Shown in pieces: positions 58,495-61,103 of a stretch of 64,000 nucleotides of DNA. The stretch spans positions 24,237 through 88,236 of the forward strand of contig NZ_QOHG01000019.1 in assembly GCF_003319125.1 (NCBI RefSeq), read 5' to 3'. Numbering within the stretch: position 1 is the first letter of the stretch; every line of letters starts with the position of its first letter. The DNA comes from Blastococcus sp. TF02A-26. Lineage in GTDB: Bacteria; Actinomycetota; Actinomycetes; Mycobacteriales; Geodermatophilaceae. A program made the translations under genes and the position numbers. The notes under the pieces are model-generated. The model was not told the DNA's origin, ran no database searches, and worked only from the letters and a program-made list of their open reading frames with translations.

Positions 58495-59151
58495 GTGCGC
58501 GAGCACTACCGCGAGGAACTCGAGGACATCAACTCCTGCCTGGTGGAGATGGCGAACTCCGTCGGTTCCGCCATGAGCACCGCCACCACGGCGCTGCTCG
58601 ACGCCGACGTCGCCCTGGCCGACCGCGTGATCGCCGGCGACGAGCACATCGACGCGGTGCGCGAGAGCATCGAGCAGCGGTGCTTCGCCCTGCTCGCCCG
58701 CCAGCAGCCGGTCGCCACCGACCTGCGCACCGTCACCGCCGCGATGCGGATCGTCGCCGACCTCGAGCGGATGGGCGACCTCGCCGTCCACGTGGCCAAG
58801 GTGGCCCGGATGCGGTTCCCGGACCCGGCCGTGCCGCAGGAGGTCCGGCCGCTGTTCCTCGACGCCGGCCACATCGCCGAAAGCCTGGTCAGCAAGACCG
58901 CCACGGTGATCGCCAAGCTGGACGTCGAGGCCGCGGCGCAGCTCGAGGCCGAGGACGACCTCATGGACCAGGTGCACCGGCAGCTGTTCCGCGAGTTGCT
59001 GTCCGACAGCTGGCCGCACGGCATGGAGCAGGCGATCGACGTGACGCTGCTCGGCCGGTACTACGAGCGCTTCGCCGACCACGCCGTCAGCGTCGCCCGC
59101 CGCGTGGTCTACCTGGTGACCGGCGAGATGGAGATGCGCAGCTCGGTGTGA
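58495..59151 (+). CDS. phoU: Phosphate signalling protein PhoU
   Basis: The protein has 218 aa, all helical, with two PhoU repeats. The metal-binding ExxxD-type signatures are seen as VATDLRTVTAAMRIVADLERMGD in repeat 1 and DVTLLGRYYERFADHAVSVARR in repeat 2. PhoU restrains phosphate signalling through the SenX3-type kinase and the Pst transporter, though no pst genes are in the window. The GTG start has a GAGGAGG ribosome site 7 bases upstream. Its stop codon abuts the first long palindrome. Confidence 0.94.
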   Translation: MREHYREELEDINSCLVEMANSVGSAMSTATTALLDADVALADRVIAGDEHIDAVRESIEQRCFALLARQQPVATDLRTVTAAMRIVADLERMGDLAVHVAKVARMRFPDPAVPQEVRPLFLDAGHIAESLVSKTATVIAKLDVEAAAQLEAEDDLMDQVHRQLFRELLSDSWPHGMEQAIDVTLLGRYYERFADHAVSVARRVVYLVTGEMEMRSSV

Positions 59152-59160
59152 CGCCTCCTT

Positions 59161-59228
59161 CCCGGGCATGGGTACCGATACCTGCGCTCCGGAGGTCGTG
59201 GGCGTAGGTATCGGTACCCATGCCTGGG
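59161..59228. repeat. Long palindrome, copy 1 (phoU side of the nuclease-like gene)
   Basis: Two 26-bp arms (59161-59186 and 59203-59228) pair with 2 mismatches around a 16-base loop containing the small palindrome CTCCGGAG. The core GGTACCGATACC is followed by TGCG. The left arm with flank (59150-59186) recurs almost unchanged at 60243-60278, including an identical 22-base core, so the nuclease-like gene is bracketed by direct copies. It begins within a few bases of the phoU stop codon. It may be a mobile-repeat end, a terminator, or both. Confidence 0.85.
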
Positions 59229-59316
59229 TGCGCACGGCCGTCGTGACTCGCCGGGGGTTGTCCACAGGACGCCGGCCCTTCGCCCGAGGACCCGGCGAGT
59301 TGGTCACGCTGCGGCC

Positions 59317-60240
59317 GTGGACTGGCGAGCGGCGATCCGGACGGCGATGGCGGAGCACGGGCAGCTGGCGACGCGGCGGCAACTGCTCGGGCACGTCCCG
59401 GCCCTCGTCCTCGACGGGCACATCGGGCGGCGCAACCTCGTGCGCGTGTTCCCCCACGTCTACCGGCTCCGGGACGCCGCGGTCGACGAGCACATGGTGC
59501 TGCGTGCCGCGCTCGTGCACGCTGGGCCGGTATCCGCCCTGAGCCACACCACGGCCCTGGCGGTGTGGGGGGTCCGCACCCTGGAGCGCCCCCTTCACCT
59601 GACCGTCGACCACGGTCTCCAGCGCGTGGGTGCACCCGACCTCGTGGTGCACCGGCGGCTCTCGTTCGATCCGACCTCCGCGCAGTGCGTGGAGAGACGG
59701 GGTCTGCGCGTGACACAGCTGGCCCGGGCACTGGTCGACTCCTGGCCTCTGCTCCCGACCGAGGAGCGTCGTCCGCTGCTGCTGGACGTCGCCCGGCGCC
59801 GTCTCGTCACGGCCGACCAGGTGAGGGACGCGCTCGCCGAGCGTCCCAACGTCGCCGGTCGACGCGCTCTCGCTCAGACGGTCGACCTCATCGCTGACGG
59901 CGTGCAGAGCGAGCTGGAGGCCCATGGCGTGCTGCGGGTCTTCCGGCACCGGTCGCTGCCGCGCAGCGTCGGCCAGTTCCGGGTCACATTGCCGACGGGC
60001 GACGTGTTCCTGGACCGCTGTTGGCCCGAGGTCAAGCTCGTCGTGGAGCTGGACGGCGCGGCGCACCACACCTCGCCGGAGGACCGCCGCCGTGACCTGG
60101 CGCGCGACCGCGCGCTCGCCGCACTCGGCTGGGTCGTACTCCGCTTCAGCTACGCGGACGTCGTGCGCGACCCCGAGGGTGTGCGAGTTGCCGTGCTCGC
60201 GGCGTACCGGGAGCGGGCCCAGCAGTTGCGCACCCGCTGA
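59317..60240 (+). CDS. AbiEi-like / DUF559 (Vsr-type endonuclease fold) protein
   Basis: The protein has 307 aa. The N-terminal 90 residues resemble AbiEi-type winged helices (QLATRRQLLGHVPALVLDGHI, GRRNLVRVFPHVYRL, ALSHTTALAVWGV). Residues 205-300 resemble DUF559, a PD-(D/E)XK/Vsr-like fold: VELDGAAHHTSPEDRRRDLARD, RALAALGWVVLRFSYADV, where E and D near 235 could be metal ligands. A second component is not visible nearby. Third-position T is more frequent than in its neighbours (CGT, GCT, CCT codons), suggesting transfer. GTG start; no clear ribosome site. Confidence 0.8.
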   Translation: MDWRAAIRTAMAEHGQLATRRQLLGHVPALVLDGHIGRRNLVRVFPHVYRLRDAAVDEHMVLRAALVHAGPVSALSHTTALAVWGVRTLERPLHLTVDHGLQRVGAPDLVVHRRLSFDPTSAQCVERRGLRVTQLARALVDSWPLLPTEERRPLLLDVARRRLVTADQVRDALAERPNVAGRRALAQTVDLIADGVQSELEAHGVLRVFRHRSLPRSVGQFRVTLPTGDVFLDRCWPEVKLVVELDGAAHHTSPEDRRRDLARDRALAALGWVVLRFSYADVVRDPEGVRVAVLAAYRERAQQLRTR

Positions 60241-60245
60241 GCGAC

Positions 60246-60327
60246 GCCTCCCCCGAGGCATGGGTACCGATACCTGCGTCCTGGCGCCCGCCAGAGGGGG
60301 TATCGGTACCCATGCCTCGGGAGGGGC
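60246..60327. repeat. Long palindrome, copy 2 (gpm1 side of the nuclease-like gene)
   Basis: Two 29-bp arms (60246-60274 and 60299-60327) pair with 2 mismatches. The loop holds a nested hairpin CTGGCG-CC-CGCCAG. The arm core is the same GGCATGGGTACCGATACC as in copy 1, in the same orientation, 1,092 bases away. It fills the space between the convergent nuclease-like and gpm1 genes and could act as a bidirectional terminator. Confidence 0.87.
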
Positions 60328-60328
60328 G

Positions 60329-61078
60329 CTACTTCTTGCCCTGGTTCTTGACCGCCTCGATGGCGGCGGCCGCGGCCTCGGGGTCCAGGTACTCGCCGCC
60401 CGGCTTCAGCGGCTTCAGGTCGTCGTCGAGGTCGTAGCGCAGCGGCACGCCGGTGGGGATGTTGAGGCCGACGACCTCGTCCTCGCCCATGCCGTCGAGG
60501 TGCTTCACCAGCGCCCGCAGGCTGTTGCCGTGCGCGGCGACCAGCACGGTCTTGCCCTCGCGCAGGTCCGGGACTATGGCGTCGTACCAGTACGGGAGCA
60601 TCCGGACGACGACGTCGGCCAGGCACTCCGTGGCCGGACGGACCTCGGGCGGCAGGAACGCGTAGCGCGCGTCGCCGTCCTGGCTGTACTCGCTGCCGGC
60701 CTCGATCGGCGGCGGCGGGGTGTCGTAGGAGCGGCGCCAGATCATGAACTGCTCCTCGCCGTACTCGGCGAGCGTGGCGGCCTTGTCCTTGCCCTGCAGC
60801 GCGCCGTAGTGCCGCTCGTTGAGCCGCCATGACCGCTTCACCGGGATCCAGTGCCGGTCGGCGGCGGCCAGCGCCAGCTCGGCCGTGGTGATCGCGCGCC
60901 GCAGCAGGGAGGTGTGCAGCACGTCGGGCAGCAGCCCGGCCGCGGCGAGCAGCTCCCCGCCGCGGGTGGCCTCGGCCCGGCCCTTCTCCGACAGGTGCAC
61001 GTCGACCCAGCCGGTGAAGAGGTTGGCCTTGTTCCACTCGCTCTCGCCGTGGCGGAGCAGCACCAGAGTCCCGGTCAC
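60329..61078 (-). CDS. gpmA: 2,3-Bisphosphoglycerate-dependent phosphoglycerate mutase
   Basis: This glycolytic enzyme interconverts 3- and 2-phosphoglycerate. It shows [20 protein letters not shown] with the phospho-His, [13 protein letters not shown], and the second His in [18 protein letters not shown] take the GTG at 61078 (249 aa, beginning [11 protein letters not shown] as homologues do), because an AGG ribosome site is 9 bases upstream, whereas the ATG 9 bases further upstream has no room for one. It is convergent with the nuclease-like gene. Confidence 0.95.
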
Positions 61079-61103
61079 GGCGATCATCCTGCCCGACGCC
61101 GGC

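Follow-up and report, generated by a model that had tools for sequence, protein, structure and literature searches.

Palindrome pairs bracket AbiEi-DUF559 nuclease-like genes in Geodermatophilaceae: a likely REPIN-like system in Actinobacteria

The phoU-gpm locus

The window considered here is a 64,000-nucleotide stretch of contig 15 in a 53-contig genome (G000, Blastococcus sp. TF02A-26) of the family Geodermatophilaceae, and all coordinates refer to it. A phoU gene with a Pfam PhoU match occupies positions 58495-59151, and a gpm-like gene with a Pfam His_Phos_1 match lies on the opposite strand at 60329-61087. The sole gene between the two, at 59317..60240 on the plus strand, encodes a 307-aa protein that is AbiEi-like over residues ~1-195 and carries a DUF559/Vsr-fold, nuclease-like domain over residues ~196-302. 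Both flanking reading frames are complete, placing the unit in intergenic DNA. The relaxed codon use that a first-pass annotation had ascribed to this gene is apparent from the GC content at third codon positions, which is 0.890 as compared with 0.959-0.987 in six neighbours.

The same annotation had described the gene as bracketed by palindromes of 68 and 82 bp. The bracketing and the first length are confirmed, while the second palindrome measures 84 bp. The upstream hairpin extends over 59161-59228 (68 bp, with 27-nt arms) and contains a 60-bp palindromic element (59165..59224, no strand assigned) made up of the 18-bp arm GGCATGGGTACCGATACC, a 24-bp spacer and the inverted arm; it is 1 of 18 near-identical copies in the genome. 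The downstream hairpin extends over 60245-60328 (84 bp, with 30-nt arms), and its 60-bp element (60257..60316, no strand assigned) begins 16 nt past the stop codon of the DUF559 gene. As had also been claimed, both palindromes open with the left arm GGCATGGGTACCGATACCTGCG, whose 22 bases are identical and run the same way in the two copies, both are preceded by shared flanking bases (the 9-nt GACGCCTCC), their spacers are unlike each other, and the RNA fold of the second copy has a nested hairpin. The GACGCCTCC repeat could be either a target duplication or a product of chance. If as many as 2 mismatches are allowed, the 12-mer GGTACCGATACC has 20 matches in the window versus 2.1 expected and a maximum of 7 over 100 shuffles, and the bracketing of the DUF559 gene by the two palindromes is real and far from chance.

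The encoded protein

The N-terminal part of the protein matches an AbiEi-fold antitoxin. Its nuclease domain matches the homing endonuclease I-Bth0305I and has a Vsr-type catalytic fold with conserved acidic residues, and the nuclease residues are invariant in 82 homologues. According to extracts of one report (PMC7319586), the promoters of AbiEi and Rv2827c carry 23-bp inverted repeats to which the respective protein binds, the paired repeats of Rv2827c being 13 bp apart; two repeats and their gap are together as long as the elements described here (59-60 bp).

One alternative built on such binding would treat the palindromes as operators or terminators and not as mobile DNA, with the protein as an AbiEi-like autoregulator, the scattered copies described below as its regulon or as selected terminators, and any coevolution as that of a regulator with its sites. 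This account is unlikely. The own-promoter repeats of AbiEi and Rv2827c speak for it, as do the strong hairpins into which the element copies fold, but one palindrome stands behind the gene, which is the wrong end for autoregulation, and the retention of nuclease residues across the 82 homologues also speaks against it.

Dispersed palindrome families in the genome

Over the genome, the 12-mer has 31 exact copies, 16 of them forward and 15 reverse, as against 0 for the reversed control. Genome-wide, 18 elements make up family 1, in which the spacer is exactly 24 bp each time and different in sequence every time, and both 12-mers are intact in 13 of them. The arms are almost invariant, with 15 of the 18 arm pairs unchanged across all copies. 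Sixteen of these elements adjoin none of the five DUF559 matches in the genome. A covariance model built from family 1 found at least 16 further places, 1 of them weak (E 0.009), and this is a lower bound, with 150 of 9,546 first-look candidates scored. These 16 places, a bracketing pair included, constitute family 2, and most of them read GGCATGGGAAGCGATCCCCACGTC or near it.

That pair flanks the DUF559 gene of contig 50 on both sides. A third gene, on contig 11, has a copy of yet another, unrelated palindrome on either side, and in all, three of the five DUF559 matches lie between palindrome pairs of three different sequences. No bracketing palindromes were found at the matches of contigs 10 and 13, the latter gene being apparently degenerate.

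The neighbours of 33 of the 34 element places (the one on contig 24 was left out) were called as convergent genes in 19 cases, tandem in 10 and divergent in 2, while 2 could not be called. In most cases (28/33) a stop codon is no more than 20 nt away. These positions, with 19 of the 31 classified sites between convergent genes, count in favor of the operator or terminator account.

Covariation between the arms was not above shuffles in family 1 alone, a result that is uninformative because the arms there hardly vary. Five other genomes supplied 69 of 77 listed elements (omitting 6 of other length in their genome and 2 of G064), and just two positions beat all 300 within-genome shuffles. These were position 16 of G062, with 15/16 pairs kept as against a shuffled mean of 8.7 and maximum of 13, and position 23 of G063, with 15/16 pairs kept and a shuffled maximum of 13. 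When the 69 elements were pooled, nine positions beat all 300 shuffles, but pooling mixes the palindrome dialects. Arm covariation is weak evidence here. Membership of a known Rfam RNA family was considered and rejected: there were six matches up to E 1, every one of them well short of its gathering score (33.6 bits against 124 bits for the best), and they were taken as generic hairpins.

Palindrome pairs at other DUF559 loci

A survey covered 93 DUF559 loci (389 kb) from this genome and its relatives, taken nearly in order of E-value; six higher rows (three near contig ends and three skipped), one cut locus (L058) and all lower rows were left out. Matching palindrome pairs spaced 500-1700 nt apart occurred 42 times, and 41 of them bracket the DUF559 gene, in 36 loci. 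Since loci centered on a gene favor bracketing pairs, a control was made over all 90 pairs at this spacing, in which 41 of 61 bracketing pairs matched each other versus 1 of 29 other pairs. Among the 62 longer loci, all 29 matched pairs bracketed the gene. Strong palindromes concentrate 1,000-1,100 nt before the DUF559 stop codon and within 100 nt of it, and where a locus has both an upstream and a downstream palindrome, the two match in 35 of 44 cases, whereas 1000 shuffles across loci gave 2.1 on average and 7 at most.

The palindrome sequences are of many kinds and differ between different DUF559 genes. Four loci with matched pairs belong to other families of the order (G036, G045, G051 and G052). 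The 36 loci are not all independent, because about 10 of them hold an orthologue, or a near-orthologue, of the window gene, and a matched pair is absent at 57 of the 93 loci. Close orthologues of the window gene have one in 29 of 31 rows. The first-pass annotation had proposed a search of this genome and its relatives, and had named as adverse an outcome in which palindromes were spread without enrichment near DUF559 genes. Dispersed copies do exist, and the 16 of 18 noted above do adjoin unrelated genes, yet matched pairs are strongly enriched at DUF559 genes.

An exact pattern for another DUF559-associated palindrome matched in 8 of 112 genomes, with 1-3 copies. As this second palindrome clade is not highly dispersed, dispersal is not attributed to DUF559 units in general; high dispersal is seen only for the clade of the window gene.

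Co-occurrence of gene and elements across genomes

Of 112 genomes of the family, 44 contain the element-type pattern (GGCATRGG...), in up to 38 copies, and control matches were 0 in all genomes. A close relative of the window protein, defined by E up to 1e-100 and at least 59% identity, is present in 23 of the 112. By this cut-off, nine genomes of genus g3, most of them with relatives at 51-57% identity, were counted as lacking the gene, and 4 of the 9 have elements. All 23 genomes with a close gene relative have elements (mean 16.7), versus 21 of the 89 without (mean 1.3). The contrast persists within genera (stratified permutation p 5e-5); in genus g12, the mean number of elements is 19.8 in 8 genomes with the gene versus 2.6 in 15 without.

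The sequences of gene and palindrome also vary together. Protein distance and palindrome distance are correlated over 23 of 24 units (Mantel r 0.43, p 1e-4; the unit of G008 was under threshold), and the correlation between genera only is just significant (r 0.17, p 0.045). Over 20 arm positions, the two palindromes of one unit differ by 2.3 on average and those of different units by 5.4. Scattered copies follow the bracketing pair to varying degrees: in G034 they are nearest to their own pair, in G063 they are slightly nearer to the pair of G076 than to their own, and the listed copies of G062 are closer to the G076/G063 dialect than to their own bracketing pair.

It is conceivable that these are ordinary repeats spread by other machinery, such as IS elements, RAYTs or recombination, with the DUF559 gene a chance passenger between two copies. 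The 21 genomes that have elements and no close gene relative would suit this idea. It is nonetheless very improbable, given that 41 of the 42 matched pairs bracket DUF559 genes and that the palindromes of different DUF559 genes are unrelated. In addition, the Y1 transposase domain (Y1_Tnp, PF01797), the only transposase family searched for, was found in 0 of the 44 element-bearing genomes, the control search being positive in 5 of 14.

Gain and loss of elements at orthologous sites

Sixteen solo sites of family 1 were compared with the corresponding junctions of two congeners, giving 26 comparable cases that were read by eye. A two-sided alignment was lacking for L023 in either congener, for L001 and L028 in G002, and for L014 and L021 in G001. 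The congener junction holds an element in 7 cases, a degenerate one in 1 and none in 18. All 7 of the elements are AAGC-type and none is TACC-type, the type found at these sites in the present genome. The 18 junctions lacking an element are nearly bare (7 and 2 nt unaligned), carry a hairpin of unrelated sequence, or contain other sequence. This comparison indicates that elements have been gained or lost, and that the dialect differs as a block at the sites that are shared.

For the operator or terminator account, the hairpins of other sequence at several orthologous sites in relatives are a supporting point, and the 18 of 26 sites where the congeners have no element of this kind are an opposing one. 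Read together with the location of the gene described next, the scattered palindromes appear to come and go while the gene mostly stays at one locus.

Location of the unit and origin of the window copy

In 28 genomes, including the contig 50 copy of this one, the unit shares one site between a gene for a CorA-family transporter and a TP_methylase gene. The latter is presumably of RsmI type, and the site is referred to here as corA-rsmI. It accounts for 29 of 32 entries, which correspond to 28 genomes with the row of Modestobacter DSM 44400 being identical to that of G133, a genome of the same family whose protein is identical to that of Modestobacter sp. DSM 44400. The G021 and G028 hits, and the second copy in each of G115 and G116, were outside the survey. 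The possibility that the unit lies at a different place in each genome was ruled out by this shared locus. With a single site occupied in so many genomes, the unit is mostly inherited in place. The units of G115 and G116 occupy another site, common to both.

The window unit is the sole one between phoU and gpm. These two genes adjoin in 24 of 24 genomes examined, and a relative of the DUF559 gene was found at the junction in 0 of 23 relatives. Between the aligned ends, the two congeners have 27 and 37 nt, 20 other genomes have from 16 to 429 nt, and G005 has ~1.3 kb of other sequence. An empty phoU-gpm site in related genomes, which the first-pass annotation had suggested looking for, was found in this way, and the presence of the whole unit there in this genome only is a further point against palindromes that are simply operators or terminators. 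The description of the unit as mobile needs qualifying, in that the unit mostly keeps to the single corA-rsmI site of 28 genomes, while the scattered palindromes vary between genomes and the window copy is the exception. Nothing was found to support its description as defence-like.

The window protein is 77% identical to that of G033 and 76% to that of G034, as compared with 70% to the resident contig 50 copy. In a tree, the resident copy groups with both congeners and a pair of genomes from genus g4 (support 100/99) and the window protein falls outside, at a fork that is poorly resolved. These identities and this placement favor a horizontal origin. The window copy appears to be an exceptional relocated or acquired unit, additional to the one at corA-rsmI, and its simplest reading would be an incoming unit with its own palindrome dialect. 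A search for the window protein in plasmids and phages gave no match, and a scan of genome contigs with it gave one named locus.

A different process, akin to homing and gene conversion, could also be envisioned. The nuclease would cut a palindrome of foreign dialect or an allele that lacks the unit, and repair from the resident copy would homogenize the elements and keep the unit at its locus, with little true transposition. The match of the nuclease domain to I-Bth0305I, the one locus held in 28 genomes, and the 7 shared sites that are TACC-type here and AAGC-type in congeners, as en bloc conversion would give, are all compatible with it. A homing endonuclease normally cuts the empty allele, however, and not the flanks of its own gene. 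Moreover, conversion from a template should copy the spacer as well, which is different in every copy, and the congener sites that lack an element require insertion or loss. This process is accordingly judged a rather poor prospect as the main explanation.

Comparison with known systems

The closest parallel is with REPINs and RAYTs. In extracts of the relevant reports, REPs lie on both sides of RAYT genes, the two coevolving (PMC2817692), a genome with three RAYTs has a separate REPIN family next to each (PMC3116915), and REPINs are inverted repeats with a diverse spacer that are commoner in those E. coli genomes that have a RAYT (PMC8049555). The present system resembles such a "REPtron", as far as those extracts describe it, in having a gene bracketed by palindromic repeats, and several families per genome that each lie beside their own gene. 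The elements are likewise hairpin-forming inverted doublets around a short, diverse spacer (here 18-bp arms and a 24-bp spacer), and they are extragenic and near 3′ ends or convergent junctions, like the distribution given for REPs in part of PMC3733652. Mostly vertical inheritance and more copies where the gene is present are further likenesses. By the pattern used, the elements reach up to 38 copies per genome.

There are also differences. The protein has an AbiEi part and a DUF559/Vsr fold and is not a Y1 HUH tyrosine transposase. A GT(A/G)G tetranucleotide is found near either edge in 1 of the 18 aligned copies; CGTC, which tags another REP group, is carried by 13 of 18 copies in the inner part of the left arm and not at the foot, and is absent from dialects such as TACGG or GCGGA. 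The portion of PMC3733652 consulted lists GTAG and CGTC repeats for several phyla, Actinobacteria not being among them. Given the absence of Y1_Tnp from all 44 element-bearing genomes and the lack of a GTAG foot, the system is REPIN-RAYT-like but not a member of that class. The analogy with REP-RAYT units, drawn in the first-pass annotation with a different nuclease fold in mind, is well supported as an association by dispersal, matched bracketing pairs and gene-specific sequences, and a new REPIN-like system in Actinobacteria is likely. The open-licence literature searched contained no description of palindromes at DUF559 genes.

Other known systems share single features with the unit. The AbiEi-fold part recalls AbiE type IV toxin-antitoxin systems, but here that part is followed by a fused nuclease-like domain, there is another palindrome downstream of the gene, copies are scattered, and there is no adjacent gene for a nucleotidyltransferase toxin (DUF1814, AbiEii), the neighbours in the window being phoU and the gpm-like gene. 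The Vsr-type fold and conserved acidic residues are shared with Vsr and with Vsr-like homing endonucleases such as I-Bth0305I; in contrast to the latter, the unit is free-standing and intergenic (at phoU-gpm and corA-rsmI) with palindromic borders, and involves no intron, intein or interrupted gene. MITEs, ERIC, NEMIS and the TIR repeats of TIRYTs are, in the accounts excerpted, also short, non-coding, dispersed inverted-repeat elements, and transposase genes bracketed by terminal inverted repeats do exist (TIRYTs, in part of PMC3733652). The present elements differ from these in that the spacers vary in every copy, a clean target-site duplication is not evident, and the partner gene is not a known transposase.

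A proposed mechanism

The reading preferred here is that the AbiEi-DUF559 protein likely binds the palindrome arms and is predicted to nick or cut there, which would allow the palindromes to be copied into new places behind genes in a REPIN-RAYT-like manner; its probability is put at roughly 0.6. Sequence comparison shows the bracketing, the gene-specific dialects, the dispersal, the joint occurrence of gene and elements across genomes, orthologous sites with and without an element, and a complete extra unit at phoU-gpm. Recognition, cutting and spreading by the protein are inferred, and the first-pass annotation had said as much of recognition.

In such a scheme, two protein molecules would bind the two arms through their AbiEi-like winged-helix parts. 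The 42 bp between arm centers amount to about four helical turns and would suit two proteins bound on the same side of the double helix. The nuclease part could then nick or cut the palindrome, and repair or strand transfer might copy the element to a new junction behind genes or, alternatively, convert a foreign element. The element may double as a terminator, and would therefore be tolerable behind genes. In the case of the window unit, arrival from outside the lineage could have been followed by the spread of its dialect beside or over the older dialect of the corA-rsmI resident.

A broader proposal is more tentative and falls somewhat short of even odds. AbiEi-fronted DUF559 proteins could represent a second, independent REPIN-RAYT-like solution, in which palindrome-programmed nucleases of Actinobacteria, with one dialect each, place copies of small palindromes downstream of genes, recast the palindrome population on the arrival of a new dialect, and are able to carry their own gene as a palindrome-gene-palindrome unit.

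REPINs are, in extracts of PMC8049555, a leading example of palindromes that are dispersed over bacterial genomes and maintained by a single-copy enzyme, and the reason why such systems persist is treated there as open. If the present reading is true, convergence on this scheme in another phylum, through an unrelated nuclease, would show it to be independent of HUH chemistry. It would also provide a function for proteins that are named only "very-short-patch-repair endonuclease" or "DUF559 domain-containing protein". This genome, with two dialects side by side and an own gene for each, is a natural experiment in that respect.

A further feature of these loci is the TTGTCCACA motif, found in the window at 59258..59266 on the plus strand, 59 nt ahead of the start codon of the DUF559 gene, which resembles a DnaA box. 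TCCACAG is present upstream in 29 of 31 rows of window-gene orthologues, and the motif occurs in the 470-nt 5′ region of 52 of the 93 DUF559 genes, versus 0.018 expected.

Elements with and without an intact gene

The palindromes of the window-gene type do not always go with an intact gene of that type. In G132, the orthologue of the window gene (locus L165, with the gene in mid-locus at the corA-rsmI site) carries an in-frame TAG, and despite this the genome still has nine elements. Three further genomes (G059, G060 and G013) possess 10–14 elements, yet a close relative of the window gene is absent from them. The elements of G059 and G060 resemble the palindrome dialect of G064, and those of all three genomes perhaps represent orphan populations.

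Different sequence has also been found at comparable junctions. At the phoU-gpm junction of G005 (L176) there is about 1.3 kb of other sequence, in which no relative of the window gene was found. In the congener G001, positions where the Blastococcus sp. TF02A-26 genome has palindromes are occupied by a different repetitive sequence, GCGCGGAATTGCCCCGGGGCAGAA and similar repeats (L209, L217, L219 and L227), and these are perhaps a separate dispersed family.

Other DUF559 genes and a shared upstream motif

A third DUF559 gene of the TF02A-26 genome, on contig 11, is bracketed by its own palindrome pair (L053, 2078-2140 and 3074-3144). These palindromes (CGACGAGATCTGCACA...) are unrelated in sequence to the others and contain an inner hairpin (CATCAGCGCCTGATG) within their spacers. 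Contig 13 of this genome has another DUF559 match (L052, about 2062-2479), whose front part looks broken. It lacks palindromes, adjoins genes that, judged by eye, resemble purine synthesis genes, and is apparently a decayed gene.

Upstream of the window gene lies a TTGTCCACAG-like motif (window 59258-59266), which is DnaA-box-like. TCCACAG occurs 48–97 nt upstream of the start in 29 of the 31 orthologue rows (L143-L173). Among 93 DUF559 genes from this genome and its relatives, 52 carry TCCACAG in the 5′ region, versus 0.018 expected per region, and the bearers include genes both with and without palindromes. The DnaA-box-like motif may link expression to replication.
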